A stretch of 64,000 nt of DNA from a virus, in the IMG/VR virus record IMGVR_UViG_3300042482_000702, positions 137,355-201,354 of that record; one strand, 5' to 3'. The position numbers were made by a program, and so were the translations under genes. Positions 35,052-64,000 of the stretch are shown piece by piece. The notes beneath the pieces were generated by a model. It was not told the origin of the DNA. It worked only from the letters and a program-made list of their open reading frames with translations, and ran no database searches. The stretch's first letter is position 1; each line of letters starts with the position of its first letter.

Positions 35052-37403
35052 TTAACTCTCTTTTCTTAATGAACCATCATAATGTTCAAAGCGATTGTGT
35101 TCTGTTGGTGTTAACAATAATAATCCCGGATTGATTTTCCCTTTGACGGTTTCTTGATAACTATAAGACATTAATGTTTGTTCGTAAGGATGAGACCATT
35201 TAGTTTCTAAATAACATCTGTAATTACCCTCTCTCGATAAGACAATCGGCCAATTTGAAAGATAAACTTCTCCAGTAACATACGGTAATCCTTTGTGAAT
35301 ATGAATTTCGTTAAATTTTGTTTTTGGAGAATTGGGGTCTAAACCTTGTACGGGTAATTTAGGGTTATTTGGCCAATGTTTTTGTCTGAAATCTTGGGGT
35401 ACATTATACCAACTCCATTGTACACTATTATCACCAAAAAATTCACTAAAATTAAGTTTAAGGAAATCAAAATTTTCTTTAGAAAGTATATCTAACGATT
35501 TCTGATATAAGTTATCTACAAATCTTGGGAATCCATTTCTACAAACCTCACCTTTTTTAGGGTAAAACGCCATGTCATCCTCAAACCACCAGTAACAATC
35601 CAAATCAGTTTCATCGAAATGTTCAGCAACAAATACTCTACCACCAACAATACCAATATTATCCTTCTTAATGTGTTCAAAACCATATTGTTCACATAAT
35701 TCAATATATCTCGGTGTTGTGGTTAAATCAGTTGAATTATCTAATAAGAATTTCTTTGGTTTCTCAACAAAATCTTTATCATAGTCCAACATAGATTGGA
35801 TAAGAACCTCTAATTGTTTTGGTGAATTAAATGTGATTACATAAAGACCCACTTTTGAAGTGTCCAATTTATTCACAACAACATCTTTAGACACTTCTGA
35901 TTTAACCTCAACTGTCATATCTTTTAAATCCTCAAAGAATTTACCCATTAATCCATTACCCTCAATTTCTGAATAACTAATTAAATTAGGATATTTGTAA
36001 GTCATAATCGTAAATAACGACTCTTCAGTTCCCATTAATCCTTGTGATAAAGTATCATTCATTAACCCATAATAGATTGAATTAATTTCAGATATTGTAT
36101 CTTTTTTACCTCCGAAGAAACCTGCTCTGGCAACCATATTAACAGGTTTGCCAGCTAATTCACATAACTCTTGATACTTAAATCCATGAATTTCACTATT
36201 GGCATCATACGGGAAACAAACAAAGTGAAAATTCTTAATTAATTTAGGTAATTTATCTAAAACTTTGTCGTGGGTAAAATATCCAGGATGAATTGTATTG
36301 GTTAATCCGGCATCAATCCAAAACATATATTCTGAATCAAATTTATCTAATATTTTCGCATCGTGTAAAAGATAAATTTTAGACATAACCAAAGGGTTGT
36401 ACATTTCTAATTTAGCTTGAGTTGATTCTGTTAACCAACCAACTTGATTATACCAATCAGGGTTAGTTCTTATTTTTTGAATTTTATCGTAAAAATCATT
36501 ATTTTTAAACCAAGATAAATCTCTACGAACAAATTGAGTGTTTTCACTACGTCTGTTGTTTAATACAAATTTTTCTAACTCTTCATCACCAAAAATTATC
36601 ATATTTACATCAACTTGTAATAGTTGTTGGAATTTATCTAAATAATGTTGGAATGAACGAGACCATCCTTCTTGGAGGTCTCCCCTACCTATATCCCATA
36701 ACCCTGTTACTAATGTTGTTATATTGTTAGACTTAGTTGTCTCAACCTTTACAACATCATTCTTAACTATTATTGAATTTTTTTTATATCCACCCACTTG
36801 AGTAACAACTTCAATCACATTATTCTCAATACCTCTTAATTCAAAGAAGTCCTTAATTGCCGCTTCAACACCTGGTAAATCATTTCTTTTGTAATCGTGG
36901 AAAAATATATAACCACCATCAACAACTCTATCATAAACCTTAACTAAACTATCATATATTGAATCATAAAAATCTCCATCAAGAAATGCGAATGAAATTT
37001 TTTCAGGTAATCTATCGTTTGGAATATCACAAAACCAACCTTTTGTTATTATTGGTGGAGGTAAATTATTTTCAATAAAATTACTTGTTAAAACGTCTTC
37101 ACTGGTTACTAATGTTCTAGGTCTCCAACCCGTATTAATTTCCCATTTAGATAAATCCGGCAACCCTTCAAAAGAATCATATACATATAATTTTTTATCA
37201 GAATTAGTTTCAATTAGGGTTTTCATTAGGTATTTACTTGATTCACCAACGTAACAACCTAGTTCAACAACATCTCCGTCTATATCATTCTCAATTGCAT
37301 CTAACAAATATTCAACTAATTTTTTTATTTGTTCACCATTAATTATTGATGAGTCCACTTGTTTATTGTGGAAATTCATTATTTCATTTAAAAAATTTTT
37401 CAT
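35052..37403 (-). CDS. Three-domain methyltransferase / HtrL-YibB-like / GT-A glycosyltransferase fusion
   Basis: A 783-residue protein with three modules. Residues about 1-215 are a TylF-type sugar O-methyltransferase: the SAM loop VVELGCYVGESSKYL, then FLDGDFYDS and a FHDYKRND metal-site segment. Residues about 228-500 resemble the HtrL/YibB family (LVTGLWDIGRGDLQ, then YMFWIDAGLTNTIHPG with its acidic motif). Residues about 515-783 look like a GT2-type transferase, beginning VGLYVITFNSPKQLEVLI, with an acidic WWFEDDMAFYP metal site and a late GEVYLSNW segment. One chain would add sugars and methylate one of them. It is the last gene of the minus-strand glycosylation operon. The exact sugars cannot be told. 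Confidence 0.78.
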   Translation of the reverse strand: MKNFLNEIMNFHNKQVDSSIINGEQIKKLVEYLLDAIENDIDGDVVELGCYVGESSKYLMKTLIETNSDKKLYVYDSFEGLPDLSKWEINTGWRPRTLVTSEDVLTSNFIENNLPPPIITKGWFCDIPNDRLPEKISFAFLDGDFYDSIYDSLVKVYDRVVDGGYIFFHDYKRNDLPGVEAAIKDFFELRGIENNVIEVVTQVGGYKKNSIIVKNDVVKVETTKSNNITTLVTGLWDIGRGDLQEGWSRSFQHYLDKFQQLLQVDVNMIIFGDEELEKFVLNNRRSENTQFVRRDLSWFKNNDFYDKIQKIRTNPDWYNQVGWLTESTQAKLEMYNPLVMSKIYLLHDAKILDKFDSEYMFWIDAGLTNTIHPGYFTHDKVLDKLPKLIKNFHFVCFPYDANSEIHGFKYQELCELAGKPVNMVARAGFFGGKKDTISEINSIYYGLMNDTLSQGLMGTEESLFTIMTYKYPNLISYSEIEGNGLMGKFFEDLKDMTVEVKSEVSKDVVVNKLDTSKVGLYVITFNSPKQLEVLIQSMLDYDKDFVEKPKKFLLDNSTDLTTTPRYIELCEQYGFEHIKKDNIGIVGGRVFVAEHFDETDLDCYWWFEDDMAFYPKKGEVCRNGFPRFVDNLYQKSLDILSKENFDFLKLNFSEFFGDNSVQWSWYNVPQDFRQKHWPNNPKLPVQGLDPNSPKTKFNEIHIHKGLPYVTGEVYLSNWPIVLSREGNYRCYLETKWSHPYEQTLMSYSYQETVKGKINPGLLLLTPTEHNRFEHYDGSLRKES

Positions 37404-37409
37404 ATTTTA

Positions 37410-38039
37410 CTATTTTTTTTGTCTACAAGTCCATACAACATTTTCAAAAATGTCTTTATCGTAATATTCTAAATTATGTTCGACACAAGATAAATTTATA
37501 TCATTATTTGAAATTTCAAACCAATTCCATAATTTTTTATTAATTTTTTCTTCAAAAATTTCTTTATTTTCTGAATAATCATGGGCCATAATAAAATCAC
37601 CAACTTTAATATATTTTGATAAAATATTAAATTCCCTAATTTTATCACCACCATCACATAAAACTAAAGTTAACCCATCTTGTTGAATAAAATCAATAAC
37701 TTCTTGGTCCACATTTTGATAATTTTCATAAAAAACATTTTTAATTCTTATATCAATACCAGTTTTTATTATATCCTTATACCAACTATGTTCCACAATA
37801 TCATACGATAAAATATCAATAGGGTGTTTAAGTTCGTTTGATGACCATTGTAAAAATTGTGTAAATCCACCAAGAGCGGTACCAATTTCTAAAATTCTTT
37901 TTGGTTTTGTTTTATTTAAAAAGTTATAAAATACTTCATAAACTTTATCGGTTTGTTGGGAACTTAATCCCATAAATGATGATAACCCATCATTTTGGTC
38001 TAAATTAATTCTTCGAGTAATGTTGTCGTTTAAACTCAT
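37410..38039 (-). CDS. SAM-dependent methyltransferase-like protein
   Basis: A 209-residue protein with a class I methyltransferase fold. The SAM-binding loop is RILEIGTALGGFTQFLQW, followed by an acidic strand ILSYDIVEH, a LVLCDGGDK strand and a GDFIMAHDYSENKE end. The HDY block resembles the metal-site region of small-molecule O-methyltransferases and of the related cephalosporin-hydroxylase-like family, so hydroxylation is an alternative. It starts one base after the stop of the GT10 gene, in a tight operon, and most likely modifies a sugar of the glycan built by its neighbours. Confidence 0.7.
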   Translation of the reverse strand: MSLNDNITRRINLDQNDGLSSFMGLSSQQTDKVYEVFYNFLNKTKPKRILEIGTALGGFTQFLQWSSNELKHPIDILSYDIVEHSWYKDIIKTGIDIRIKNVFYENYQNVDQEVIDFIQQDGLTLVLCDGGDKIREFNILSKYIKVGDFIMAHDYSENKEIFEEKINKKLWNWFEISNNDINLSCVEHNLEYYDKDIFENVVWTCRQKK

Positions 38040-38040
38040 T

Positions 38041-38898
38041 CTATAACGTTATAATTTTTTTTAATAGATTATTTTCTTGGAAATATCTTTTTTTAATTTC
38101 TCTTAATCCAATTATTTTTTGTTGATATATTTCATCACTATTTTCAATTATAGTTTTTAATAATTGTTCTATAGAATCAACATCATTTATATCATCAATT
38201 AAAATATAACCATCTTCCGGGTATATTTCTTTAATATTTTTACAACCAAAATAAATAGGTATAGTATCGGTTAATATGTTGTCATAAAATTTTTCAGTAA
38301 TCCAATTTTTTTCATATGAATTTTCAATTGAAATATTAAATTTATAATCTACTAATGCGTCTTTACGTTTTGGGCTAATATTGCCATCATAAACATCTAT
38401 TCCGTTTATTTCTTTAATTCTTTCTAAAATATTAACTCTTTGAGGGTATAAACAAGTTCCTCCATAATCAGTATTTAATCTTGTGATTGAACTAGATATT
38501 ATCTTAGTTTTATTAAATGTTGATTTTAATAGATTATCGTAACACCAAAAATCTAATGTGTCAACCCAAGGGCCTCTACCACCATAAAAAGTATGTGCAA
38601 TAGATTCTTTAAAATTACCAACATATAATTCTTTTGAAAATCCACAAATAACAGTATCACTTATAAAATGTTTTTGATGTGTACCAATCCAGGAAGGTTC
38701 GTGGGGAAATACAAATGATTTAGAATTTGGTTTAATCTCAACATTAGTGTAATTAAAAAAAACTATAGTATCGTAAGAGTCGTCATAAACAAACTCTATA
38801 TTAGTCAAATCAATTTCCGGTGTTTTAAACTGCTTAAGTAATCTTTCTGTTAAATTTTCCGAAGAATCGTAATTTGCGGATATTTTTATTTTTTTCAT
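38041..38898 (-). CDS. GT10-family (fucosyltransferase-like) glycosyltransferase
   Basis: The motif YKFNISIENS, then WITEKFYDN and DTIPIYFG is the hallmark of family GT10 (alpha-1,3-fucosyltransferases and relatives), which use GDP-fucose or similar donors. The protein is about 285 residues, near the family's usual size, and also has an FVFPHEPSW segment in the N-terminal lobe. I take the ATG at 38898 rather than the one at 38916, because it gives an ATGA overlap with the stop of the previous gene, while the longer form adds six uninformative residues inside that gene. Fucose as the donor sugar is family knowledge, not shown here. Confidence 0.82.
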   Translation of the reverse strand: MKKIKISANYDSSENLTERLLKQFKTPEIDLTNIEFVYDDSYDTIVFFNYTNVEIKPNSKSFVFPHEPSWIGTHQKHFISDTVICGFSKELYVGNFKESIAHTFYGGRGPWVDTLDFWCYDNLLKSTFNKTKIISSSITRLNTDYGGTCLYPQRVNILERIKEINGIDVYDGNISPKRKDALVDYKFNISIENSYEKNWITEKFYDNILTDTIPIYFGCKNIKEIYPEDGYILIDDINDVDSIEQLLKTIIENSDEIYQQKIIGLREIKKRYFQENNLLKKIITL

Positions 38899-39677
38899 CG
38901 TTTTATATTTTCCCAATTATTATAGTTAAAACTAACTTTAAAAACCCCAGATTCATTACCAAAACCTAATTCACCAACATTATATCCGCTTATTAATGCT
39001 GACACACCAATTTCAAATGCCTCCATATCAAAAGTAATAACGTTATTCGGTTGTTGAGTTTCAAATAGAGTACAAAATTTTTCAAATTCATTACACATTA
39101 TTGGTAATTTTTCATTATTTTTAATTAACAATATGTGTTCACTTGGTAAAGACGCTTGTCTCCATTCAGGGTTAATACCGTAAAATGTAAATTTATCGTC
39201 AAATAATGCTTTATAAGTTCCGTTTTTAATTGTTTCTAAATATTGATTTTCAGCCCATTCATAAGTCCTATTTGCCAATAAAACTAACATATCAAAACCA
39301 TTACTTTCCCACTCATTTATTTTAGAATCAATAACATCTGTATTAACTTCACTATTTAATCCCGCATCACAATCTAAATAAAGAACCCAATCATATTTTT
39401 GATTGATATCTTTAATTGCTGAAAATTTTAAAAGTTGATTAAACGCACCAACGTGAGTTTTATGGTTTTCTAATTTATTTTCAGTAATAATAACACGGTT
39501 AGGGTTATTATTATACTCATCGTCAAAATGTGATGGAGCGTTTGTTGTTACCATAATGTCATATGGTGTTTTTGTTAAAACATCATTAATTAATCTTTTA
39601 GCAAAAGTTGTGTAAATTTCCGACCCTTCTCTTTCTGAATTAACATATGATATTGCCGATACTAATATATTTTTCAT
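38895..39677 (-). CDS. GT-A-type glycosyltransferase-like protein
   Basis: A 260-residue protein with features of nucleotide-sugar transferases of the GT-A fold: an N-terminal ILVSAISYVNS strand, then a YDWVLYLDCDAGLN segment whose DxD is the expected metal/donor site, and a later EWRQASLPSEHILLIKN region. No family is certain; the layout recalls glycosyltransferases that act on short glycans. The middle gene of the operon, it starts 10 bases after the previous stop and overlaps the GT10 gene by 4 bases (ATGA), which indicates coupled translation. Confidence 0.62.
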   Translation of the reverse strand: MKNILVSAISYVNSEREGSEIYTTFAKRLINDVLTKTPYDIMVTTNAPSHFDDEYNNNPNRVIITENKLENHKTHVGAFNQLLKFSAIKDINQKYDWVLYLDCDAGLNSEVNTDVIDSKINEWESNGFDMLVLLANRTYEWAENQYLETIKNGTYKALFDDKFTFYGINPEWRQASLPSEHILLIKNNEKLPIMCNEFEKFCTLFETQQPNNVITFDMEAFEIGVSALISGYNVGELGFGNESGVFKVSFNYNNWENIKR

Positions 39678-39687
39678 ATTTAAATTT

Positions 39688-40428
39688 TTAAAACCATCTT
39701 GGGTGATAGTAAGTTGTTTTATTACTTGTTATTCTATAGTATTTATTGTTTTTTAAAAAAGATGAAACTCTCTTTTCAAATGAGTCCCCAGCATATTGGG
39801 GGTATTGAATCTCTGATAGAGTATTTTCTTCATTATAAATTTGAGATTTAAAAATATTTGTGGGTATTAAAAAACATTGGTCAGAAAATCCCATCCCATA
39901 TGACCAATCAGGATGTTTATTTATTAACTCATTACCATTTAATATATAATATTTTTCATCATCTTCCGCTGCATTATATTGTAAATTCCAAATAGGGTTA
40001 ACAACTTTAACCTTATCATTTGTGTTTAATATTTCAATACCATTTGTTATCCAATCATACCCACTTTTATCTGTTAATGAATCACCGGTTAAATAAACCA
40101 TATAATCTGATTCACACAAATACACCGATAATAAAGGGGCTATTGAATACCAATACCCACCATTAAATGATTCTTTATTAATATTAAAATATTCTAATAC
40201 TTTATCACTATAATCATCAGTAAAAAAATAGTTGTCGATGACTTTATTAACTATTAATTTGGTTAAGGAGTTTTCAACTAACTCTCTATCATTAACATTA
40301 GTTATTATTAATGTTTTTTTATGAAAGTCATAATTAAGATTTTCAAATTTTCTTAATAACCCACCTTGATTTATTATTGCGTACCAATCTCCTTCATAAC
40401 ATTGAGTGAAGAAACTAACATTATTCAT
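39688..40428 (-). CDS. Putative glycosyltransferase, family unassigned (246 aa)
   Basis: A 246-residue protein that begins NNVSFFTQCYEGDWYAIIN and has a central strand YMVYLTGDSLTDK, which could be a GT-A donor-binding site although the classical DxD is absent. A late DQCFLIPTNIF segment and a final YYHPRWF are typical of small transferases that read a surface glycan. It starts one base after the methyltransferase gene in the glycosylation operon, so a sugar-transfer or glycan-modifying role is the best inference. Confidence 0.5.
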   Translation of the reverse strand: MNNVSFFTQCYEGDWYAIINQGGLLRKFENLNYDFHKKTLIITNVNDRELVENSLTKLIVNKVIDNYFFTDDYSDKVLEYFNINKESFNGGYWYSIAPLLSVYLCESDYMVYLTGDSLTDKSGYDWITNGIEILNTNDKVKVVNPIWNLQYNAAEDDEKYYILNGNELINKHPDWSYGMGFSDQCFLIPTNIFKSQIYNEENTLSEIQYPQYAGDSFEKRVSSFLKNNKYYRITSNKTTYYHPRWF

Positions 40429-40429
40429 A

Positions 40430-40987
40430 TTATTTTACTTTTTTATAAGTCCAACAAGTACTTGTTGGGGATATATTCTCAACACCAAAAATATCATTTA
40501 CCGCGTTTGAAACTGGTATGTGATAATAATCGTGACCAGATATTAACCCATTAATTTTAAGTTTTGGTAACCAAGCGTTAATATCTTTTTTAACGCTTTC
40601 ATAGTCGTGACTAGCATCAATAAAAATAAAATCAAGGGATTCATCCTCATAATCTAAAGCAGCCTCCCAAGATATTTTTTTAATAACATTAACGTAATCT
40701 TTAACAGGTTCAATGTTGTTTAAAAAAGTATCATATAACCCTTCAAAACTTTCTTTACTTATATCTGTAAACCAATCAAAAAATTGCCAAGTGTCAACAC
40801 AATCAAATTTTATCTTTTTACCTGAATTAATTATTTCTACCGCCATAAAACAAGCACTCATACCTTTCCAAACCCCAACTTCAACAAAATGAAAACCATC
40901 TGCTGATGTATCGACCATATTTTTATATATGTCTTGAAAATCAAACCAATTTTCTCCACTAATTATTTTATCGTAAAAATGTTCCAT
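40430..40987 (-). CDS. SAM-dependent methyltransferase (Methyltransf_24-like)
   Basis: A 185-residue class I methyltransferase. Visible motifs are the SAM loop HFVEVGVWKGMSACFMA, the acidic FDCVDTW strand, LDFIFIDASHDYESV and GLISGHDYYH, which match the Methyltransf_24/TylF-like group that methylates sugars or other small substrates. It lies between the GNT-like gene (3 bases upstream) and a putative transferase (1 base downstream), and with the genes at 37410 and 35052 gives this operon three methyltransferase modules. The substrate is inferred to be a sugar hydroxyl. Confidence 0.78.
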   Translation of the reverse strand: MEHFYDKIISGENWFDFQDIYKNMVDTSADGFHFVEVGVWKGMSACFMAVEIINSGKKIKFDCVDTWQFFDWFTDISKESFEGLYDTFLNNIEPVKDYVNVIKKISWEAALDYEDESLDFIFIDASHDYESVKKDINAWLPKLKINGLISGHDYYHIPVSNAVNDIFGVENISPTSTCWTYKKVK

Positions 40988-40990
40988 ATT

Positions 40991-42238
40991 TTATAAATTA
41001 CCCGTTATTCTTTCACACCAACCTTTTGACGTACTAAACGGCCAAACAACCCAGTATTTTGGTTTATGAACTGTCTGAAATTCTCTCCAAACTTTACAAT
41101 ACCCATCAGGGTCTCTCATCATGTTATTAATCTCATTGATGTCAGCATCTTTCCTATTTAAAGTTTCATCATTCTCATCGTGGAAAGCCACAACCCAAAA
41201 TTCGTAATCTTTTTCTGGTACTTGAGTAAATCCAATATCTATACAATGTTTAAAGATACTAGCGTAACTTGCCAACCATTCTTCTTCGGTTTCATAAATT
41301 GTTGGATTTGGTGCGTAATGTTTGTCTAAAGTATATTGTTGGACAGCTCTCGTTGAAAATTTAAGACCTGAATAGATTTCATAATCTTTTAATGTTCTTT
41401 CAGTCCCAAAACCGTAATAACTAAAATCCATAGTCACTTCTTCACCATCCATACCAAATAATTGACGATTCTTTAAATGAGATAATTCGTTTTTCTTACC
41501 CCACTCTTTATCATCATCCCATTGTTTTGTTCTACCCTTACGAGTATATTCGTGCCAAATAACAGTTTTATGTGGGTGGAATAAATCATATCCGTGGGTA
41601 AATGCTCTAACGGCAATAGATATTTCTTCACCGTGAAAATAGAACTCAGGGTCATGTTGAACCTCAACACTAAATTGTCCTACTGTAAATGCCATGTGGG
41701 CGGAGTAAAATCTTGAGGTAACGGGTTCTTTAAGGTTTTCCCACCCCGGAATTGTTTCAGGTAAGAAAAAGACAGCGCCTTCAGGTATGAATCTATCAAA
41801 CGCCATTCTCCATGGGTCTCTAACTCTCCCTGCTGGGTCATTGTCGGGGTCAAATGAAGAAACATACCCCGTTAATAAAGGTTTCTTAAATCCTTTCTTT
41901 TGAAGTTGTTTAACCATTTTGATTAAGGTGTCATCCCAATCTTTCTCAAATCTCATATGAGAATCGATTTGTAGAGTATATTCTTCACCTTTATATAATT
42001 GTTGTACTTGGTTTCTTGCCCAACAAACACCTTTGGACTCTGTGTATAAAACATCAACAACTCTAAATCTTTTATCTTTTGCGTATTCGGATAAATCATC
42101 AAACCCATCTTCCGGGTGATATTGACGACAGATTCCAATTACCAAATTTTTAGGTTTTTTTGCATTCTCCAACATTGACTTAATTGTTGGAATAAGTTGG
42201 GGGTCCCGATAGGAAGCGATTTGTACAAAAATTTTCAT
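40991..42238 (-). CDS. GlcNAc-transferase (Skp1-GnT-like) glycosyltransferase
   Basis: A 415-residue enzyme like the GNT family, which in eukaryotes adds GlcNAc to hydroxyproline of Skp1 and in bacteria and phages acts on unknown acceptors. Key parts are an N-terminal IFVQIASYRDPQLIPTI, the donor/metal site YTLQIDSHMRFEKDWD, then RFYSAHMAFT, and FHGEEISIAVRAFTHGYD with HKTVIWHEY, which is diagnostic. It is the first gene of the minus-strand glycosylation operon. Its start codon lies inside one arm of a 17-bp perfect inverted repeat (42231-42295), so its translation may be controlled by RNA folding. A protein-linked GlcNAc core made by this enzyme is an attractive inference. Confidence 0.85.
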   Translation of the reverse strand: MKIFVQIASYRDPQLIPTIKSMLENAKKPKNLVIGICRQYHPEDGFDDLSEYAKDKRFRVVDVLYTESKGVCWARNQVQQLYKGEEYTLQIDSHMRFEKDWDDTLIKMVKQLQKKGFKKPLLTGYVSSFDPDNDPAGRVRDPWRMAFDRFIPEGAVFFLPETIPGWENLKEPVTSRFYSAHMAFTVGQFSVEVQHDPEFYFHGEEISIAVRAFTHGYDLFHPHKTVIWHEYTRKGRTKQWDDDKEWGKKNELSHLKNRQLFGMDGEEVTMDFSYYGFGTERTLKDYEIYSGLKFSTRAVQQYTLDKHYAPNPTIYETEEEWLASYASIFKHCIDIGFTQVPEKDYEFWVVAFHDENDETLNRKDADINEINNMMRDPDGYCKVWREFQTVHKPKYWVVWPFSTSKGWCERITGNL

Positions 42239-47285: not shown

Positions 47286-47318
47286 ATTATTTTATTATTA
47301 TTATTATTATTATTATTA
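47286..47318. repeat. (TTA)n microsatellite between adhesin genes
   Basis: A run of about nine TTA triplets lies between the 1329-aa and 1653-aa genes and includes the stop codon of the former. AT-rich 9-base repeats (ATTAATTTT) occupy the matching position between 51315 and 51345. Confidence 0.85.
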
Positions 47319-54635: not shown

Positions 54636-56975
54636 TTATGGATATGATAAAAATGATATAGATGCAACCTCTGTAATTGTATTATAAGATATTGAAGCCA
54701 CTCTTCTCTTTATATTAACTCCTTCTCCACATAATCCTGTAATAACATTTATAGGGGTCGAAATGGAATTAGCCACAACCGTACCAGTACTTACAAATCT
54801 ATTTGTTTCAATTCCATCAACAACCTCTTTTGAAATAACTCCACCTATAAATGTTTCATATTTTACAGTGATTGGCTCTGTGCCAGAGGGTCCAGAATGC
54901 CAGCCAGCAAAACACTCCGCTATTATATCATTTTGAGTTAGAATTCCGCTATTTTCAAGATTTTTAAAGTTTATAACAACTGATTCCCCAAAAGTCCCAG
55001 CAACTGATTGACCAGCGTCATCACCTCCAAAGTAAAGGTAAGAAGTGTTTATATCAGATGTGACAGGTATAGGGTCTAAATCATCATTTGCACCACAACC
55101 AACAACACCTGTTCCAGGAATAAATCCAGTTGTATTACTTGATGAAGTACCTGACAATGCGCTAGTTGGATACCTAAAAGTAGTAAGTGTATCTAAATCA
55201 TAATTCTGTCCATATTGATACGTTACAATGATATAGTCAAAAGGATTAAGTACTACTGTTTGCGCTGTTATAAAACTTAATGGAGAACCATATCCTGTTC
55301 CAACTTGATTAGTAGCAAAAGCTCTAACCCAATATGTATTATTAGGTGTAAGAGATGTAAGGTTACTACTAAAATCACCTGTACCCGTTCCATCAGATGT
55401 ACTACCTAATATAATCGCAAAATCTTGGGTAGCACTCCACTGAATTCCCTTAGCAGATATAGTACCATTGTTTGCGTTTATTGATACTCCTCCACTAGTT
55501 GCGGATGTGGTAGTAATATTTACAATAGTTGCGGTGACTAATGTCGGAACATCTACACTATTTAGATTAACTGTTAGACAACTAGGTATTTGAGACGCTC
55601 CGGCAATATTATTTACAACATTATCAACTAATGTTAAACCGTATGGGGAAGATGTGTTAATTAAATATATATTAGTCGAAGTCGTACTAACAGTATCAGT
55701 TATGTAAATATTTCCATTATTCTCAAAAATACCATAAGTACTACAAGTAATTGGTGATAATAAAGGTACATCAACTTCTATCACACCAGTTGAATAGTCC
55801 CATTGTGTTAAATAACAATATCTTATAGTATCAAAATCAACAGTAACATCTACATAATTAAGTGCTAAAAATTTATCAGTTGTTGTTCTGAAAAAATCTC
55901 CAGTTATTCCCGAAGATTCAATGTTTGATATTCCCCTATTAATGACTATTGGAAATTTAGTCGTCATAACCCCCGTCGTAACCCCTGAAATATTAATTTC
56001 GACCACCTCAAGTGGTGATGTCGACTTATTTACCGCCAAAATAACATCATCTGAAATTGCTGCCAATCCTGCGGAACAACTAAAACCGGAAGGGTAAAAT
56101 ATTTCACGATTAAAAGTTGCGGTAAATGGTGATAATGTTATATTATATTCATAAAAACTTGTTCCGCCAGGCTCCCAAAGTTTATTGGCTGTATGAGCAA
56201 TATCAAGCCCACCACTATACTGACTTGGCATTGTTAACTCTGTTGAATCACCAGTATCAGCATTATAAACCCAAACTTTATCATTACTATCATTATATAA
56301 TACAGCACAAGTTGATACAACAGGATTACTAGTTGGAGTTGGTGTTAATGTAGGTGTTGGTGTTAATGTAGGTGTTGGTGTCATTGTTGGCGTTTGTGTT
56401 TTTGTTGGTGTCATTGTTGGCGTTTGTGTTTTTGTTGGAGTCATTGTTGGCGTTTGTGTTTTTGTTGGAGTTATTGTTGGCGTTTGTGTATTTGTCGGAG
56501 TCGGAGTTGGTAGACAACTATTGTTAACACAAATATCATAAACTGATATATTCACATTTTCATCCGCAAATGGTAACTTACCACAAAAATAAAAAGTCAC
56601 TGATTGAGGAATTACACCGGTAAATATAGTTCCATTACATTGAGTATAACCAAAATTTAAATTACCAGTCCCAACATTAATAAAGGCGATACAATTACAC
56701 GAGATATTTGTTGGGGTTAATGTTGGTGTCGGAGTTAATGTTGGTGTAGGTGTAGGTGTAAAACAATTGATGTAATTCATTGTTTTACATCCTTTACTAT
56801 CGGTTATAACCACCAATAATTTGTTAACCCCATTTAGTTGTGTTGGTGGTGTTATTGTTATAGGTGCAGATGTCACACCACTAATTACAAAATAACAATA
56901 AGTGTATGTTATATCACATACTGTGATACTAAAGGGTGAATTACCTACTAAACTAGTGATTTCTATTGACTGCAT
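54636..56975 (-). CDS. Fibre-like protein with Thr/Pro linkers and beta-propeller/Fn3-like parts (779 aa)
   Basis: A 779-residue modular protein. An N-terminal Ig-like part (1-73) is followed by a short Thr/Pro linker (about 74-90), a small Cys-containing domain (about 91-150), a longer linker of [10 protein letters not shown]-type repeats (about 153-213), and a region (about 215-480) with repeated VWVYNADTG and NGNIYITDT-like strands that may form a beta-propeller. Residues about 485-575 look Fn3-like (ATIVNITTTSATSGG, then NNTYWVRAFATNQVGTGYGS). The C-terminal 190 residues are unassigned. It is the first gene of the adhesin block. An ATATTTATCAAT element abuts its ATG, too close for a normal leader. 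Confidence 0.65.
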   Translation of the reverse strand: MQSIEITSLVGNSPFSITVCDITYTYCYFVISGVTSAPITITPPTQLNGVNKLLVVITDSKGCKTMNYINCFTPTPTPTLTPTPTLTPTNISCNCIAFINVGTGNLNFGYTQCNGTIFTGVIPQSVTFYFCGKLPFADENVNISVYDICVNNSCLPTPTPTNTQTPTITPTKTQTPTMTPTKTQTPTMTPTKTQTPTMTPTPTLTPTPTLTPTPTSNPVVSTCAVLYNDSNDKVWVYNADTGDSTELTMPSQYSGGLDIAHTANKLWEPGGTSFYEYNITLSPFTATFNREIFYPSGFSCSAGLAAISDDVILAVNKSTSPLEVVEINISGVTTGVMTTKFPIVINRGISNIESSGITGDFFRTTTDKFLALNYVDVTVDFDTIRYCYLTQWDYSTGVIEVDVPLLSPITCSTYGIFENNGNIYITDTVSTTSTNIYLINTSSPYGLTLVDNVVNNIAGASQIPSCLTVNLNSVDVPTLVTATIVNITTTSATSGGVSINANNGTISAKGIQWSATQDFAIILGSTSDGTGTGDFSSNLTSLTPNNTYWVRAFATNQVGTGYGSPLSFITAQTVVLNPFDYIIVTYQYGQNYDLDTLTTFRYPTSALSGTSSSNTTGFIPGTGVVGCGANDDLDPIPVTSDINTSYLYFGGDDAGQSVAGTFGESVVINFKNLENSGILTQNDIIAECFAGWHSGPSGTEPITVKYETFIGGVISKEVVDGIETNRFVSTGTVVANSISTPINVITGLCGEGVNIKRRVASISYNTITEVASISFLSYP
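56325..56520 (-). repeat. Thr/Pro-coding repeat in the 779-aa fibre gene
   Basis: About ten imperfect units (plus strand GTTGGCGTTTGTGTTTTTGTT-like, about 30 bases when paired) encode TKTQTPTMTP-type sequence. Confidence 0.85.
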
Positions 56976-57048: not shown

Positions 57049-59787
57049 ATGGATATGAAAAAAATCTTAATTATAACCCCCCATTTAAGTACAGGTGGAG
57101 CTCCACAAGTAACTCTTAACAAAATAAAGTTGTTAAAAGACGATTGTATTATTAAATGCGTGGAATATTCCTTTATCGCTTGGAACTACGTCATTCAACG
57201 AAATCCACTTGAAAATATGTTATTAGATAATTTTCACTCATTAGGCGATAATAAATCTGAACTTATTAATATTCTAAAAGATTTTAACCCTGATGTTGTT
57301 AGTATGGAAGAATTCCCTGAATTCTTTATGGATGATAATATCACAAAAGAAATATATAAAGAAGACCGTAGATATACTATTTTTGAAACCACTCACGATT
57401 CTAGTTTTCCTGTTACATCAAAAAGATATTTTCCGGATAAATTTATATTTGTAAGTGCTTTTAACGCTTTCAGATATTCTATCTTTGATATTCCATATGA
57501 GATAATTGAATATCCTGTAGATGTTAAAATAAAAAATCAAAAAGAGAATCAAGAGAAATTAGATTTAAGTTCTGATTGGAAACATGTTGTTAATGTTGGT
57601 TTATTTACGGCAAGAAAAAATCAAAAATATCTTTTTGAGATTGCCGAATACTTAAAGAATTATAAAATTAAATTTCATTTTATTGGGAATCAAGCTGATA
57701 ACTTTAAAGATTATTGGGAACCTTTAATTACTAACAAACCTAAGAACGCCATTATTTGGGGTGAGAGAAATGATGTGGATAGTTTTATTCAGGCATCTGA
57801 TGTGTTTTTCTTTTCATCGAAAGGTGACCGAAATAATAAGGAATTAAACCCTATCGCAATTAAAGAAGCTTTAGAGTATAAGATACCAATGATGATGTAT
57901 AATTTGGAGGTTTATTGTGGTAAATACAATGATGAAAAATCAATCACTTTTTTAACCGGCGATTTAAAACAAGATTCGGAAAACTTATTAAATATTTTGG
58001 GGGTTGAGGTTGATGATTCATTAACTTCCCATATAAATGATGATGAAGTTATTATTATTAGCACTTATCCTGACACTATTAAACGCAAAAATCTAACAAT
58101 TGAATGTATTGAGAGTTTTAAACAATTAGGTAGAAAAATTATATTAGTTTCTCATTATCCGGTACCAAATGAGATACACGAGATGGCGGATTATTATGTT
58201 TTTGATTCAAATAATTTGATGATACCTCATTCATATTATACACACTTCTACAATAATACGAATCAATATAATGCCCAAATAAACATCAATGGATTATCAA
58301 ATTCAAATCAATCATTGGCGGCACACATGAATTTTATGAATGGTGCTAAATTAGCCAAAGATATTGGTGCAACCAAATTTATGATAATCACTTATGATGT
58401 TATTCTAAATGATTTGGACATACCATTAATTGAAAAATATTTTAATAAATTAACAACTTGGAACTGTTGTTTATCTTATATGGACAATGGTATTGAAACA
58501 ACATCTATGGTGTTTAAAACTAGTTATTTTCTAAATACTTTTTTAGACATTACTGATGAAGTAACCTTTAATAATCATTGTTCTGAATTGAAATGTCACA
58601 ATTTTTTGGAAAATTATTATATGAAAATATTAGAAGGTAAAGAAAACCTTTGGATTGAACATAACAATCAAAAAACTATTTTACCGAATTCGGGGTTGGG
58701 TGTATCATCTAATTCAGAATATTATTCTATTTTACCAGTTAATGAAACTAAAAATAAATGGGTATTCTATTTTTATACTTATAATATTGATAATCGTAGA
58801 TTAGAATTATCTATTAATAAATCGGGGAAAAACATCTTTAAAGATTCTATAATTATTTCCGAACGTAAGTCAGATTTAGTTTCGGATAGAGCAAAATATT
58901 TTAAACATATTGATTATGACGGAGAACCTATTGAAATTGTCATATCATTTTATGATGGAGATAATTTACATAAAACAGAAACTTATGAATTAAATGATAT
59001 TACAATTCACGAATACTATAACAATGGGTTTTTTAAAGAAAATAATCAATCTTTAATATCTAATATTGAATCTCCGAAATATAACATTAAAATATTACAT
59101 TTACAAACAACTATAAACGATGTTAGAGAACAGTTATCAAGAGAATCTCTTCAGAAATTAAATGATTTTGGTTTTAATTATGTTTTACATAAAAATGTTC
59201 CGTACACATCATTACCACCGTCACATAATTGTTTAAGACCTCACAATGTTAGGTTAGAGAAATACGATAATATTGATGACCCTGAGTACGGAAATGCTTT
59301 AACACCGGCTCATTATGGTTGTTTTGATTCATTTAAGTTAGGTATTTTATCAGAATTTGATAAAGAGTTAGATTTTCTAATTGTTTGTGAAGGTGATTGT
59401 ATTATTGAAGTCCCTACGGAAGAATTTGTTAATAAAGTTAATATGGTTTGTGAAATAATTAACAATGAAGACATTTCTTACTTCTCATTTGGTGACACCA
59501 AAACATTAGATTTTGGGTGGCACCAATCCAATGAGATTAGAAAAATCCCTAATCAAGATTTACTTTTTATCACCGATAAAATAATTGGATTACAATGTGT
59601 GATGTTCCCAATAAAAACTAGAGAATATCTTACCAATAAATTAAGAACTGAAAAATGGGATTGTATGGATACATTTTTTAACATTATTTTTTCAAATAAA
59701 AATATGGGGATATTAAAGAATAGAATAACTACTCAGGCAGACGGATTTTCTTTAATCGATAAAGAATTAAAAACATTTATAAAATAA
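57049..59787 (+). CDS. Multidomain glycosyltransferase (GT4 plus GT25-like, 912 aa)
   Basis: A 912-residue protein. Residues about 1-320 are a GT4/GT-B glycosyltransferase: N-terminal ILIITPHLSTGGAPQVTLNK, then HVVNVGLFTARKNQKYLFEI, FHFIGNQ and the donor-site region LNPIAIKEALEYKIPMMMYN. Residues about 330-560 are a second, GT-A-like region (VIIISTYPDTIKRKNLTIE). The last 230 residues, with TPAHYGCFDSFKLGIL followed by FLIVCEGDCII, resemble GT25 enzymes, where a similar block precedes the acidic metal site. Two ATGs (57049, 57055) are possible. It is divergent from the fibre genes and followed after 11 bases by another multidomain transferase. The sugars are unknown. Confidence 0.78.
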   Translation: MDMKKILIITPHLSTGGAPQVTLNKIKLLKDDCIIKCVEYSFIAWNYVIQRNPLENMLLDNFHSLGDNKSELINILKDFNPDVVSMEEFPEFFMDDNITKEIYKEDRRYTIFETTHDSSFPVTSKRYFPDKFIFVSAFNAFRYSIFDIPYEIIEYPVDVKIKNQKENQEKLDLSSDWKHVVNVGLFTARKNQKYLFEIAEYLKNYKIKFHFIGNQADNFKDYWEPLITNKPKNAIIWGERNDVDSFIQASDVFFFSSKGDRNNKELNPIAIKEALEYKIPMMMYNLEVYCGKYNDEKSITFLTGDLKQDSENLLNILGVEVDDSLTSHINDDEVIIISTYPDTIKRKNLTIECIESFKQLGRKIILVSHYPVPNEIHEMADYYVFDSNNLMIPHSYYTHFYNNTNQYNAQININGLSNSNQSLAAHMNFMNGAKLAKDIGATKFMIITYDVILNDLDIPLIEKYFNKLTTWNCCLSYMDNGIETTSMVFKTSYFLNTFLDITDEVTFNNHCSELKCHNFLENYYMKILEGKENLWIEHNNQKTILPNSGLGVSSNSEYYSILPVNETKNKWVFYFYTYNIDNRRLELSINKSGKNIFKDSIIISERKSDLVSDRAKYFKHIDYDGEPIEIVISFYDGDNLHKTETYELNDITIHEYYNNGFFKENNQSLISNIESPKYNIKILHLQTTINDVREQLSRESLQKLNDFGFNYVLHKNVPYTSLPPSHNCLRPHNVRLEKYDNIDDPEYGNALTPAHYGCFDSFKLGILSEFDKELDFLIVCEGDCIIEVPTEEFVNKVNMVCEIINNEDISYFSFGDTKTLDFGWHQSNEIRKIPNQDLLFITDKIIGLQCVMFPIKTREYLTNKLRTEKWDCMDTFFNIIFSNKNMGILKNRITTQADGFSLIDKELKTFIK

Positions 59788-59798
59788 TAAATAACAAT

Positions 59799-61922
59799 AT
59801 GAGAATAACGCAAGTAACACCAGGAGTAATCCCTGTTCCACCTAATGGATGGGGAGCCGTCGAAAAAATATTATGGTGCTATTATAAAGAATTTAATTCT
59901 TTAGGACACGAATGCACAATTAAATATTTAAACGAAGCGTCGACAGATAATTCAGATATAATACATATCCATATCGCTAATTTGGCGTTAGACGCTGCGG
60001 AAAGAGGTATTCCTTATATTTTTTCCCTACACGACCATCATGTTGTTCATTACGGAAAAGATTCGTTTAATTATAAACAAAATTTAGAGGCAATACAAAA
60101 ATCTGTAATATCATTTTGTCATGCGGAATATTTGGTTGATTACTTTGATGGGACTGATAAATTATTTTATTTATCTCACGGAGTTGAGGTTGATTATTTT
60201 AAAGTGGATAATTTATATAGGTCAGAGCATAAATTACTTTGTATTGCGAACAATGGTATCGGTGGTGATGTATCGTTTGATAGAAAAGGTTTTAGATACG
60301 CTATAGAGGCGGCAAAAAAACTAAATCTTCCAATAACAATTGCCGGACCTGAAAATAATAAATCATTTTTTAAACATCATCCTGACTTATTAGAATATGA
60401 AAAATTAACGCTATTACTTACTAATTTAGGTGAAGATGAGATTTTAGAGTTATATAAATCACATTCAATATTTTTACACCCATCAATATTAGAAGCTGGT
60501 CACCCAAATTTAACATTATTGGAAGCGGTGTCTTGTGGACTTCCTGTTGTCGGAACATATGAGGGTTCTCAAAAAATAGATGGTATGGTTGTAACAGAGA
60601 GAAACTCTGATTCAGTAGCAAATTCTATTTCGGAAATAGTGGACCAATACAAACATTATGTGGATTTAACTCAAAATAATAGAGATAAATTTGATTGGTC
60701 AATCATTTGCGAAAGAATGGTTAAAATGTATGAGGTAGTCACCTTAATAAAAAAAGAATACACATCTGACGAAACTAAAAATTTATTTATAAAAAATTTT
60801 AACAATATAACGAAAACAATGGGATTAATAAACTCAAATAACCAAAATGTAAAACCAAATGTAAAATATAATTTTCATTTTGTTAATCAACCTTTTTTTG
60901 AAATATTAGGAGATAGCGATAAAAAATTTAATGTTGGATTTTATGATAGTGGTGGATTACATCATCACACGGAATTATCGTCAAATATGTGGACTAAAGT
61001 AAGTAGAGAATACTTTACAAATTGGTATATCAAAGTTTCTTGTGATAATGACATTGTTTTTGAATATAACCTTGATTTAACAAATAGAAGAGTTTTCATT
61101 TCTTTTGAATCTAGTTCGTTGGGAGATAGTATTGCTTGGATACCATATGTTTTAGAATTTAAAAAACAACATAATTGTATTGTAATTGTCTCAACTTTTT
61201 GGAATAAATTATTTAAAAAATCCTACCCTGAATTAGAATTTGTTGAACCAGGTTCAACTGTTAAAAATCTATTTGCGTTATATAGAATTGGATGGTTTGA
61301 AAATGAAACAAAGGAACCTTTTTACCCTAACACAATACCATTACAAAAAACAATCACAAATCTTTTAAAATTAGAACATACAGAAATTAAACCAATACTT
61401 GATTTTATACCTAAAGTAAAACCTATGGTTGAAAAATATATAACAATAGCCGATGAGTCAACTGCCGGATTAAAACTATGGAATAACCCAAAAGGGTGGC
61501 AAGAACTTATTGATTATTTAACCGGATTAGGTTATAAAATTATTAATATATCTAAACACGGTGGAAATTATAAAAATGTTACAAAATTAAAAGATACGTC
61601 AATAGAAAATACTATGAACTATATTCACCATAGTGAATTTTTTATAGGGTTATCAAGTGGGTTGTCTTGGCTTTCATGGGCGTTGGGTAAACATGTTGTA
61701 ATGATTTCTAATTTTACTGAATCTGACCACGAATTTACATCAAATTGTACTAGGATAACAAATGATTCTGTGTGTAATGGATGTTGGAATAAATCAGAAT
61801 TTAGGTTTGACCGTGGTGATTGGAACTGGTGTCCCGAACATAAGGGGACTCCTCGTCAATTTGAGTGTCATAAATCAATAACCTCTGAAATGGTGATAAA
61901 ACAGATACAACATTTATTATAA
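59799..61922 (+). CDS. GT4 glycosyltransferase fused to a TibC-like O-heptosyltransferase
   Basis: A 707-residue fusion. Residues about 1-310 are a GT4 enzyme (VPPNGWGAVEKILWCYYKEF, HPSILEAGHPNLTLLEAVSCGLPVV). Residues about 350-707 match bacterial autotransporter heptosyltransferases such as TibC, which attach heptose to Ser/Thr of surface adhesins: FESSSLGDSIAWIPYVLEF, STFWNKLF, EFVEPGSTV, FFIGLSSGLSWLSWALG and the terminal cysteine set VCNGC, DRGDWNWCPEHKGT and QFEC. The four cysteines (658, 661, 677, 690) correspond to the iron-binding site of TibC. A short beta-hairpin domain sits between the halves. Close to Thr-rich fibre genes, it is the best candidate for the protein-glycosylating enzyme. 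A terminator follows. Confidence 0.88.
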   Translation: MRITQVTPGVIPVPPNGWGAVEKILWCYYKEFNSLGHECTIKYLNEASTDNSDIIHIHIANLALDAAERGIPYIFSLHDHHVVHYGKDSFNYKQNLEAIQKSVISFCHAEYLVDYFDGTDKLFYLSHGVEVDYFKVDNLYRSEHKLLCIANNGIGGDVSFDRKGFRYAIEAAKKLNLPITIAGPENNKSFFKHHPDLLEYEKLTLLLTNLGEDEILELYKSHSIFLHPSILEAGHPNLTLLEAVSCGLPVVGTYEGSQKIDGMVVTERNSDSVANSISEIVDQYKHYVDLTQNNRDKFDWSIICERMVKMYEVVTLIKKEYTSDETKNLFIKNFNNITKTMGLINSNNQNVKPNVKYNFHFVNQPFFEILGDSDKKFNVGFYDSGGLHHHTELSSNMWTKVSREYFTNWYIKVSCDNDIVFEYNLDLTNRRVFISFESSSLGDSIAWIPYVLEFKKQHNCIVIVSTFWNKLFKKSYPELEFVEPGSTVKNLFALYRIGWFENETKEPFYPNTIPLQKTITNLLKLEHTEIKPILDFIPKVKPMVEKYITIADESTAGLKLWNNPKGWQELIDYLTGLGYKIINISKHGGNYKNVTKLKDTSIENTMNYIHHSEFFIGLSSGLSWLSWALGKHVVMISNFTESDHEFTSNCTRITNDSVCNGCWNKSEFRFDRGDWNWCPEHKGTPRQFECHKSITSEMVIKQIQHLL

Positions 61923-61923
61923 C

Positions 61924-61949
61924 AAAAAACCCCAATTAAGGGGTTTTTT
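61924..61949. terminator. Bidirectional intrinsic terminator
   Basis: AAAAAACCCC and GGGGTTTTTT form a perfect 10-bp stem with an AATTAA loop, between convergent genes; T tracts follow in both directions. Confidence 0.9.
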
Positions 61950-62824
61950 TATTGTTTTCTAATTGAATCTATAATTTGATTTACATCAAAAATTTCATTT
62001 AAGTCATTATACGGAATACTTGTCATATCTTGGAATAATAAATATTTAGAGTAATGACCATGGTCTAACATTAGTTCTTTTGTTGGTGTGTTAGCCATTA
62101 TATTTGTATTGGTGTGGTATCCAAATACATTAGGGTTAGTTCCAACCCAAGTAACAACAGATGGAAGATTTAATGATGCCGCAATGTGCATAACACTTGA
62201 ATCTATTAATAATCGTTTTTTAGATAAACTCAATAAAATTGCAATACTTCTAAAATCATCTAACGCTTGTAAAGTGTCTTCATAAACAAATTGGTCTTCT
62301 CTTTTAATGTGAAGAATTGCGTAATCATTTTTAAAATATCTAATCACTTCCTCTATTGTTGGTTGAGGTATATCACGAGTCCAACTATATTTTAAAGGTT
62401 GTCCTACAGCACCACCATTTGGTTGTATAACCATAATTGGTTTATCCACTTTATAGAATTGTGTGAAGTATTGTTTTTCGGCTTCAGATATAAAAATTTC
62501 AGGTAATTCACCTCTATACTCAACACCAAACATTTCACACCAAATCTGAATTAAGTGTTTAGATTCCGTAATGTAATCTGATGTTTGATATGGTTCACCA
62601 ACAAACACTTTGGCGTCTTGGTCCATAATGTACTTAGCGTACAGCCCTGATAATTGTCCGTGATTTAATACCTTGTTCATATTTGGATTGTTAATAAAAA
62701 CATCCGGAAAACCAGTTACTACAATTATATAACCGTCAGGGTATTGTCTTCTAATGGCTTTTAATACGGCGGTTCCCATTACGGATTTCCCCAATCCACC
62801 TTCTATTGAAAATATTATATTCAT
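61949..62824 (-). CDS. GT9-like (heptosyltransferase-fold) glycosyltransferase
   Basis: A 291-residue protein with the layout of ADP-heptose-type transferases (GT9). The N-terminus IIFSIEGGLGKSVMGTAVLK is the usual first Rossmann strand and loop, VIQPNGGAVGQP lies at the domain junction, and the donor-site block LLIDSSVMHIAASLNLPSVV followed by TWVGTNPNVFGY is diagnostic. It is somewhat shorter than bacterial WaaC/WaaF (about 320-350). It is probably a partner of the TibC-like enzyme across the terminator, but its acceptor is unknown. It is the last gene of a minus-strand run with the APS kinase and sulfotransferase. Confidence 0.75.
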   Translation of the reverse strand: MNIIFSIEGGLGKSVMGTAVLKAIRRQYPDGYIIVVTGFPDVFINNPNMNKVLNHGQLSGLYAKYIMDQDAKVFVGEPYQTSDYITESKHLIQIWCEMFGVEYRGELPEIFISEAEKQYFTQFYKVDKPIMVIQPNGGAVGQPLKYSWTRDIPQPTIEEVIRYFKNDYAILHIKREDQFVYEDTLQALDDFRSIAILLSLSKKRLLIDSSVMHIAASLNLPSVVTWVGTNPNVFGYHTNTNIMANTPTKELMLDHGHYSKYLLFQDMTSIPYNDLNEIFDVNQIIDSIRKQ

Positions 62825-62836
62825 ATTTGTTTTTTT

Positions 62837-63283
62837 TTAATTGTTTAATATTTTTTTTATACATTCATTAACACCAATACTTGTTGTGTCAATATCAATA
62901 AAGTTTTCTGTTGGAGGTTCATAGTCATCAACAAACAAATTCTCCCTACCTCTAATTTCGGATGTGTGAACATAAATCTCTGTGATTTTTCTACCCATCT
63001 TTTTTTTAAATTTATCTCTTTGGTCTTTATATGGTGATACTAATGAAACAACAATATTAACACTTTGAGAACTGAGATATTGGGACATTTGTTGAGCAAG
63101 TTGAATATTTTTTCTTCTACCATCTTCAGAATAATCTTTATTATCAAATAAATCTCTAATATCATCACCATCAATGTGGAAACATAATTCCCTTTTAATA
63201 TCAATAAGTGATGAAGATAATTCTTTTCCCAATGTTGTTTTACCAGCGCCCGGCTGACCTGTTATCCAATATATGTTAGACAT
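62837..63283 (-). CDS. cysC: Adenylylsulfate (APS) kinase
   Basis: I place the start at the ATG at 63283, giving 148 residues that begin directly with the kinase fold (SNIYWITGQPGAGKTTLGKE). A longer open frame from 63364 would add a hydrophobic leader lying inside the upstream gene. Motifs are Walker A GQPGAGKTT, FHIDGDDIRDLF, the SEDGRRKNIQLAQQM region, VSLVSPYKDQRDKF and a final YEPPTENFIDIDT, all as in CysC. The enzyme phosphorylates APS to PAPS, the sulfate donor. The adjacent sulfotransferase gene overlaps it by 8 bases, so the two form a sulfation pair. Bacterial CysC is longer (about 200), so this is a compact version. Confidence 0.88.
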   Translation of the reverse strand: MSNIYWITGQPGAGKTTLGKELSSSLIDIKRELCFHIDGDDIRDLFDNKDYSEDGRRKNIQLAQQMSQYLSSQSVNIVVSLVSPYKDQRDKFKKKMGRKITEIYVHTSEIRGRENLFVDDYEPPTENFIDIDTTSIGVNECIKKILNN

Positions 63284-64000
63284 ACCCAAAATAATCATAA
63301 AACCATTTATAATGATTCTTAATGTTGGTTGATAATTCATAACCCAATATATCCAAATAATCATCCGGTAATTTTCTAAATTCTTTTCTCAATACATGGT
63401 CACCATATATACCGTGAACAACATCATTTTCGTTTGTCACCTGTTCGATATATTCAAAATTGTGTTCTTGATACATTGGTTGTCCAACATAGTCGTAAAA
63501 TCGTTTTAATTCTCTTTCAGGGTTATCCATCAAATCCTCGTATCTAATAAATAAAATTTTAGTATGAAGTCCTTGTTGGAAGATATCTTGTAGTCGGTCT
63601 AATGTCACACCAACCGGTGGACCACTAGCCCAAATATCTATTCGTTTGTTTACAGTTGTTCCAACCAATTCGTTTGGGTTCTGTATATGATTTTCTTTGT
63701 GGGGGTTTTTTCTGAAGTTTTTTTCCATTGAGGAATAGACACATCTAATGTCTCTAACCATACAAACAATCTTTGGGTCTTCTTTGAATAAACTCAATAG
63801 ATTGTAATTAATACCCCACCCTCGACTCTTGTCTAACACATATGGTTTATCTGTTAATTCCTCAAAGAATCCTTGAATCCCTTTTCTACAAAAATTAATG
63901 AATGCTTTTTCCATTAATTTGGGGTCTTGTGCTCTAATTTCTTGAGAACCATTATAATGATTTTTAGCTCCCGATACCAACTCAATTAATCCTGAAGTTG
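63276..64000 (-). CDS. Sulfotransferase (5' end beyond the window)
   Basis: The frame is open to the window edge without a start, so the first part is missing; a TTG at 63980 is not the true start because TSGLIEL continues upstream in frame. Visible features of the PAPS-dependent sulfotransferase fold are DKSRGWGINYNLLSLF, then the 3'-phosphate-binding block KIVCMVRDIRCVYSSMEK, and FIRYEDLMDNPERELKRFYDYVG. The usual N-terminal PAPS loop lies outside. Together with the APS kinase it would move sulfate onto a sugar or protein; a glycan of the phage fibre or the host surface is the likely acceptor, by context only. Confidence 0.85.
   Translation of the reverse strand, partial: TSGLIELVSGAKNHYNGSQEIRAQDPKLMEKAFINFCRKGIQGFFEELTDKPYVLDKSRGWGINYNLLSLFKEDPKIVCMVRDIRCVYSSMEKNFRKNPHKENHIQNPNELVGTTVNKRIDIWASGPPVGVTLDRLQDIFQQGLHTKILFIRYEDLMDNPERELKRFYDYVGQPMYQEHNFEYIEQVTNENDVVHGIYGDHVLRKEFRKLPDDYLDILGYELSTNIKNHYKWFYDYFGYV

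Follow-up and report, generated by a model that had tools for sequence, protein, structure and literature searches.

Two putative O-glycosylation systems for virion fibres in a large uncultured tailed phage

We analysed a stretch of 64,000 nucleotides (hereafter, the window; G000:C1:137355-201354) from the 322,477-bp IMG/VR record IMGVR_UViG_3300042482_000702, which belongs to an uncultured tailed phage. Our reading, to which we assign a probability of roughly 0.68, is that this phage encodes two systems for the O-glycosylation of virion proteins, each consisting of an initiating glycosyltransferase and a matching low-complexity fibre. In one system, a TibC-like enzyme would act on collagen-like fibres with (Gly-Thr/Ser-Ser)n repeats (GTS fibres). 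In the other, a GT60-like enzyme would act on Pro-Thr-rich (PT-rich) proteins. The observations on which this reading is based are gene content, fold, conservation of active-site and iron-finger residues, co-occurrence and proximity of genes, and variability of the accompanying cassette. The three genes of the window that are considered first are as follows (aa, amino acids; GlcNAc, N-acetylglucosamine).

40991..42238, minus strand: GT60-like enzyme (Pfam PF11397; similar to Skp1-GnT and mucin-type polypeptide GlcNAc-transferases), proposed initiator on Pro-Thr repeats
42306..47267, minus strand: PT-rich fibre/adhesin-like protein of 1653 aa (PHROG match to "virion structural protein"), proposed substrate of the GT60-like enzyme
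59799..61922, plus strand: GT4-TibC fusion (TIGR04414, 4RAP), proposed initiator on Ser/Thr collagen-like fibres

An earlier note on the window had proposed that a single glycan and sulfation system decorates the Thr/Pro-rich stems of the phage's own fibres. Every open reading frame (ORF) named in that note was found in its place, and the Thr/Pro-rich proteins are real. Virion fibres are also our best reading of the target, but Thr/Pro stems could not be kept as the substrate of all of the enzymes.

A TibC-like enzyme and Ser/Thr collagen-like fibres

The protein encoded by 59799-61922 is composed of a GT4 domain (residues 1-330) and a TibC/BAHT-like O-glycosyltransferase domain (residues 385-705). 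Its score for TIGR04414, the NCBIfam equivalog for autotransporter O-heptosyltransferase, is 280.6 bits (cut-off, 200), and its sequence matches crystallised TibC (PDB 4RAP) with an E value of 4e-48. The AlphaFold2 (AF2) model of the TibC-like domain has a mean pLDDT of 91. All of the top 21 PDB matches to this model are TibC, and the TM(query) values are 0.85-0.88 to TibC and at most 0.59 to WaaC/WaaF/GT9. In TibC, Asp110 is the catalytic base, Thr226, Lys230, Trp305 and Arg286 bind the donor, and Cys339, Cys342, Cys358 and Cys370 hold an iron that is required for assembly and activity (PMC4358343). The equivalents of Asp110, Thr226, Lys230 and Trp305 and of the four iron-finger cysteines are invariant in all 82 phage TibC sequences. 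In 59799-61922, the catalytic residues are Asp443 and Lys559, and the iron finger is made of Cys659, Cys662, Cys678 and Cys690. On these sequence features, we argue that the TibC-like protein is a working BAHT-type protein glycosyltransferase, the donor of which, for reasons given below, is perhaps other than ADP-heptose. When bacterial and archaeal genomes were scanned with the GT4-TibC protein, no relative was found.

We then counted the neighbours of TibC at 80 viral loci that encode relatives of the TibC-like protein. An ORF for a Ser/Thr collagen flanks 59 of the 80 loci, whereas a PT-rich protein is present within 10 kb in only 12. When the TibC sequences were clustered at 65% identity, the association with Ser/Thr collagen was found in 15 of 21 lineages, and the distance was within 2 kb in 11. 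The partner is a large collagen-like protein in which the X position of the Gly-X-Y triplet is about 85% Thr/Ser and the Y position is about 80% Ser; Pro, which stabilises the triple helix of collagen, is almost lacking at either position. Six partner proteins score 36-551 bits for Collagen PF01391 (cut-off, 27.2), and the partners match tail-fibre families of PHROG. In four large neighbours, NCBIfam models detected no TIGR04415-type/autotransporter repeats (strand-loop-strand), and only collagen-like models matched.

The ORFs of whole records were compared for 20 large TibC records together with this phage (21 in total). At least one Ser/Thr collagen-like ORF is present in all 21, whereas any PT-rich ORF is present in only nine. 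The nearest Ser/Thr collagen gene lies closer to TibC than the positions of the other genes in each record would predict (combined p = 1.3e-6). In contrast, the distance from TibC to a PT-rich ORF is barely shorter than expected (p = 0.04, nine records). The coding pattern TPTxTPT is missing altogether from 30 of 48 TibC records. At the DNA level, the GTS pattern was found in 28/50 TibC records and in 5/50 controls, and both controls that exceed the TibC cut-off belong to those five; when only records with a length of at least about 87 kb are counted, the numbers are 13/16 and 0/12, respectively. Three control records read whole (G099, G132 and G117) contain no collagen-like ORF. Thus, 12 of the 21 large records and 30 of the 48 records have kept TibC and its partner gene but lack a Thr/Pro protein, an observation of the kind that the earlier note had itself named as refuting its proposal. 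The idea that TibC acts on Thr/Pro stems is therefore not supported, and PT-rich stems were rejected as the TibC substrate on co-occurrence.

The association was also sampled in reverse. Viral records were chosen by repeat pattern alone: 50 with GTS repeats, 50 with PT repeats and 50 others (Pro-type collagen or neutral). TIGR04414 was detected in 14/50 GTS records, 2/50 PT records and 1/50 of the others (Fisher p = 1.5e-5, GTS versus the rest).

This phage possesses three GTS collagen-like genes. The nearest one (genome 204225-209795, equivalent to 66871-72441 in window numbering) is located past the sulfotransferase gene, 4.9 kb from TibC. Because its start is 2.9 kb outside the window, the Ser/Thr-collagen partner is invisible from the window alone. 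The other two are at 70077-77468 and 246242-248308 of the record.

The TibC/GTS pair is also present in a cultured cyanophage, Microcystis phage Mel-JY01 (PP395634), in which the GT4...TibC fusion is annotated as "methyltransferase FkbM". Just upstream of this fusion, an open frame that runs across the arbitrary record start encodes approximately 1788 aa, including 145 GTS/GSS triplets. This frame (L459:2-3052 and L461:7678-10001) is annotated merely as fragments on the opposite strand. In a 735-kb uncultured phage, the ORF directly upstream of the TibC gene is that of a large glycosyltransferase, and a distance of 99 bp separates it from a GTS ORF. We propose that the TibC/BAHT-like enzyme would add the first sugar to Ser/Thr residues of the (Gly-Thr/Ser-Ser)n tail fibres.

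A GT60-like enzyme and PT-rich proteins

The second putative initiator, 40991-42238, scores 236.4 bits for the PF11397 "GlcNAc" domain (gathering cut-off, 21). Its DSH motif, at residue 92, is kept in 80 of 80 relatives. Neighbourhood counts for this enzyme cover 80 related viral loci: a PT-rich ORF is present in the flanks of 69, and a Ser/Thr collagen in only one. At 54 of the 80 loci, the next gene upstream, at a distance of about 60 bp, encodes a PT-rich protein. The same arrangement is found here, where the GT60-like gene sits 68 bp downstream of 42306-47267 in the same orientation. These upstream proteins vary from 259 to 3315 aa, and 55-1652 of their residues belong to PT stretches. Their tails are diverse, but an N-terminal domain is common to many of them. 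In the reverse sampling, PF11397 was detected in 11/50 PT records, 0/50 GTS records and 1/50 of the others (p = 2e-5). The co-occurrence of enzymes with Thr/Pro fibres expected in the earlier note is thus borne out for the GT60-like enzyme.

The GT60 family contains polypeptide alpha-GlcNAc transferases, which act on Hyp or Thr, namely Skp1 GnT1 and trypanosome mucin-type enzymes. The phage enzyme resembles them in the strong PF11397 match, the DSH motif and the coupling to Thr/Pro-rich proteins. It differs from them in being prokaryotic and phage-encoded, with virion fibres as the predicted substrate and an activity that is likewise predicted. The GT60-like gene and the six genes that follow it form a seven-gene minus-strand operon (35052-42238), and a second PT-rich protein is encoded farther along the window.

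35052..40987, minus strand: six-gene glycan elaboration set after the GT60-like gene (assigned by domain matches)
54636..56975, minus strand: second PT-rich protein, 779 aa, with PT segments at 56697-56774 and 56310-56522

The six-gene set encodes a fusion of a TylF-type methyltransferase with an HtrL_YibB-like domain, an FtsJ/CmcI-like methyltransferase, a GT10 enzyme that also resembles solved fucosyltransferases, two unassigned glycosyltransferase-like proteins and a Methyltransf_24 protein. This set is poorly conserved among relatives. In our model, the GT60-like enzyme would add the first sugar, probably alpha-GlcNAc, to Thr residues in the PT stretches of 42306-47267, and the six downstream genes would extend, fucosylate and methylate this glycan. 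Other PT proteins of the phage are probably also substrates.

The PT stretches are genuine but partial: they cover 347 of 1653 residues in 42306-47267 (segments 45477-46340 and 42870-43046) and 97 of 779 residues in 54636-56975. The tandem repeats of both proteins are 12/18/30-bp units. 42306-47267 also contains two Fib_succ_major domains and a tandem pair of LamG domains that are nearly identical to each other; this suggests a recent internal duplication. In 54636-56975, an N-terminal domain of about 154 aa (window 56514-56975) is kept in relatives, and the tails differ widely. This domain has the motif IEITS..G.SP..I.ICDIT.TYCY and resembles an attachment module for exchangeable fibres. Its homologues adjoin gene A, described below, at 19 TibC loci, and in L018 (174 aa) and L008 (197 aa) the protein encoded beside gene A lacks a long PT tail. 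Two large proteins with LamG or other domains, which are not PT-rich (47316-51305 and 51345-54512), separate the two PT genes. About 11 PT-rich ORFs are scattered over the whole phage, for example at 67169-70066, 112198-114858, 211560-215318 and 271522-276426 of the record.

Gene A, the variable cassette and the surrounding genes

The second enzyme set of the window comprises GT4 genes, the TibC-like domain, a weak GT9-like protein, an adenosine-5'-phosphosulfate (APS)-kinase-like protein and a sulfotransferase. The members not listed above are as follows.

57049..59787, plus strand: gene A, multi-domain glycosyltransferase (GT4 Pfam match), conserved TibC partner
61949..62824, minus strand: GT9-like protein, weak match (PF01075, E = 3.6e-4, below the cut-off)
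62837..63364, minus strand: APS-kinase-like protein (PF01583, 68.7 bits), for supply of 3'-phosphoadenosine-5'-phosphosulfate
63276..64000, minus strand: sulfotransferase of 273 aa (PF00685/PF13469), extending beyond the window end to about 64097

Gene A encodes an N-terminal GT4 domain, a GT-A-like middle region, a beta-sandwich and a C-terminal region that may be GT25-like. A gene A homologue is the best match at 58 of the 80 TibC loci. The AF2 model (pLDDT 78, pTM 0.40) matches GT4 enzymes in Foldseek. The C-terminal region matches human collagen galactosyltransferase COLGALT1 with an E value of 2e-9, but the TM score in Foldseek is at most 0.3, and we read this likeness as suggesting, at most, that a GT25-like domain is present.

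The interval between gene A and TibC contains 0-7 genes, and it differs even among phages whose TibC sequences are 89-95% identical. It is empty here. In one relative (L002), it contains two methyltransferases, one of them in a GT2/CmcI-type fusion; in another (L004), its genes include those for RmlD, UDP-galactopyranose mutase and a methyltransferase. The GT9-like protein is conserved in L002, L003, L004, L028 and L054. Homologues of the APS-kinase-like protein are present at 15/80 TibC loci; the protein itself is below the NCBIfam apsK equivalog cut-off (72 of 139 bits). The full-length sulfotransferase has the motifs PRAGSTL and VRDIRCVYSSM, and its homologues are found at 11/80 loci. Gene A and the lineage-variable cassette would extend the TibC-initiated glycan, and the APS kinase and sulfotransferase would sulfate it.

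The record encodes a tail sheath, a tail tube, a baseplate hub, a UvsX-like protein and a B-family polymerase; therefore, the phage is a large contractile-tailed phage. A megablast search of the window against the annotated phage collection gave no match, and there is thus no close relative in that collection. The tail sheath protein (window 18929-22723, 1264 aa) matches the PHROG sheath family only in its C-terminal approximately 210 residues. The TibC cassette adjoins the tail sheath gene in eight relatives. The sheath was considered as a TibC substrate from these loci, and was dropped because Ser/Thr collagens explained more loci. A papain-like cysteine peptidase gene (PF00112; phrog_16701; window 33902-35005) adjoins the glycosylation operon.

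Alternative readings, known systems and implications

Several points weigh against the proposal of two virion-protein O-glycosylation systems. The glycans, their sugars, the acceptor residues and their role are deduced from sequence and co-occurrence. The PHROG matches of the collagen-like proteins fall on low-complexity repeats, and in three of the 21 large records (G037, G044 and G040) the collagen gene is distant or poorly ranked. No TibC was detected in 36 of the 50 GTS records, in which another initiating enzyme, or no modification, is possible. Large records with GTS fibres and no TibC include L105, L118 and L142 (91-148 kb). The pairing statistics treat partial and related records as independent, and shared phage ancestry may contribute to them. 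The 80 GT60 loci are fairly close kin (33 clusters at 95% identity and eight at 85%), and a PT-rich upstream gene is found in only four of the eight clusters at 85% identity. Because of this relatedness, the record-level PF11397 test is the more independent evidence. Finally, Arg286 of TibC, the adenine contact behind ADP-sugar specificity, is highly conserved in BAHTs (PMC4358343). Its equivalent is Thr in this phage, and Arg is kept in only 3/82 sequences and lost in 79/82. When this phage and the flanks were searched with E. coli gmhA, no homologue was detected. Because of the loss of this Arg and the lack of a gmhA homologue, the donor may not be ADP-heptose, and the earlier suggestion that heptose is the sugar is weakened.

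Glycosyltransferases beside phage tail fibres are usually read as modifiers of the host surface, as in pelagimyophages (PMC7029224). By analogy, the enzymes of this phage might alter the host O-antigen or capsule against superinfection, and their adjacency to fibres would reflect a shared hypervariable host-interaction region. RmlD and UDP-galactopyranose mutase, found in the cassettes, are typical of O-antigen loci. However, this explanation predicts a link to fibres in general, whereas TibC was linked to Ser/Thr collagen only and GT60 to PT-rich proteins only, and neither enzyme tracks records with Pro-type collagen. Furthermore, TIGR04414 and PF11397 are protein-O-glycosylating families, and the scans, which covered parts of the window and of the cassettes, revealed no polymerase, flippase or lipid-carrier transferase. 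We consider modification of the host surface to be unlikely.

Another explanation is that the PT and Gly-Ser-Thr repeats are plain spacers and that they co-occur with the enzymes through phylogenetic hitch-hiking within a small number of phage lineages. PT and Gly-Ser linkers are common in secreted proteins, the records are related and partial, and proximity is weak in some. This explanation is quite improbable given the 15 of 21 divergent TibC lineages, the 735-kb phage and the Microcystis phage, and given that records sampled in reverse, by repeat, also show the association, with each repeat type tied to one enzyme only. A single system, in which TibC, GT60, sulfation and both operons jointly act on Thr/Pro stems, would suit the close linkage of all parts in the window, the PT protein 54636-56975 directly adjoining gene A and the 19 loci with its N-terminal domain, but it is very improbable in view of the 12 large TibC records with Ser/Thr collagen and no PT protein, the 2/50 PT records with TIGR04414, the 0/50 GTS records with PF11397 and the short gene A neighbours in L018 and L008. 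Two initiating enzymes with separate substrates fit this double dissociation (TibC with GTS, GT60 with PT).

The proposed systems can be compared with known ones. BAHTs are protein Ser/Thr glycosyltransferases whose genes are usually beside that of a low-complexity surface substrate, and TibC hyperglycosylates autotransporters (PMC4358343). The phage TibC domain shares the fold, the catalytic Asp and Lys and the iron-finger cysteines with the BAHTs TibC and AAH (TIGR04414; PDB 4RAP and 4RB4). Unlike BAHTs, it is phage-encoded, fused to GT4, mostly devoid of the Arg286 equivalent and partnered with a collagen-like tail fibre instead of an autotransporter, and its cassette is predicted to extend, methylate and sulfate the sugar. 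Heptosyltransferase activity and a dodecameric assembly are further traits of BAHTs. BclA of the Bacillus exosporium is a glycosylated bacterial collagen-like protein, the sugar of which has been suggested to support filament hydration (PMC8968730). GTS fibres resemble BclA, whose repeats carry short glycans, as hydroxyl-rich Gly-X-Y repeats in protruding surface filaments. They differ from it in the Thr/Ser-Ser composition with almost no Pro, the glycosyltransferases, the likeness to phage tail fibres and a glycosylation that is predicted. In mimivirus, the L230 lysyl hydroxylase/glucosyltransferase glucosylates mimivirus collagen (PMC9614988). There, as predicted here, a virus encodes both a collagen-like virion protein and its glycosylating enzyme; however, the mimivirus chemistry is that of hydroxylysine in a eukaryotic virus, whereas Ser/Thr, a BAHT-type enzyme and phages are concerned here. 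The PT proteins have the Thr/Pro-rich tandem repeats of mucin-like glycoproteins, and dense O-glycans may be present on them. A search of the literature on phage collagen glycosylation found nothing direct.

The glycans would stiffen and hydrate the Pro-poor collagen-like stalks, protect the fibres and vary the virion surface. As a tentative generalisation, for which we would put the odds somewhat short of even, phages may follow a pairing rule: GT60-like enzymes for Pro-Thr stems, and BAHT/TibC-like enzymes for Pro-free (Gly-Thr/Ser-Ser)n stems, the rigidity of which would depend on the sugar. The fast-evolving cassette would then give near-identical phages different virion "serotypes". The double dissociation between enzyme and repeat points to self-decoration of virion fibres and away from modification of the host O-antigen, and which enzyme acts on which fibre would become predictable from sequence alone. 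This reading offers a function for the abundant PT and GTS repeats of environmental phages, which are hard to annotate, and it could explain the cohesion of proline-free collagen-like stalks. Because the cultured cyanophage Mel-JY01 carries the TibC/GTS pair, the idea is directly testable in that phage.

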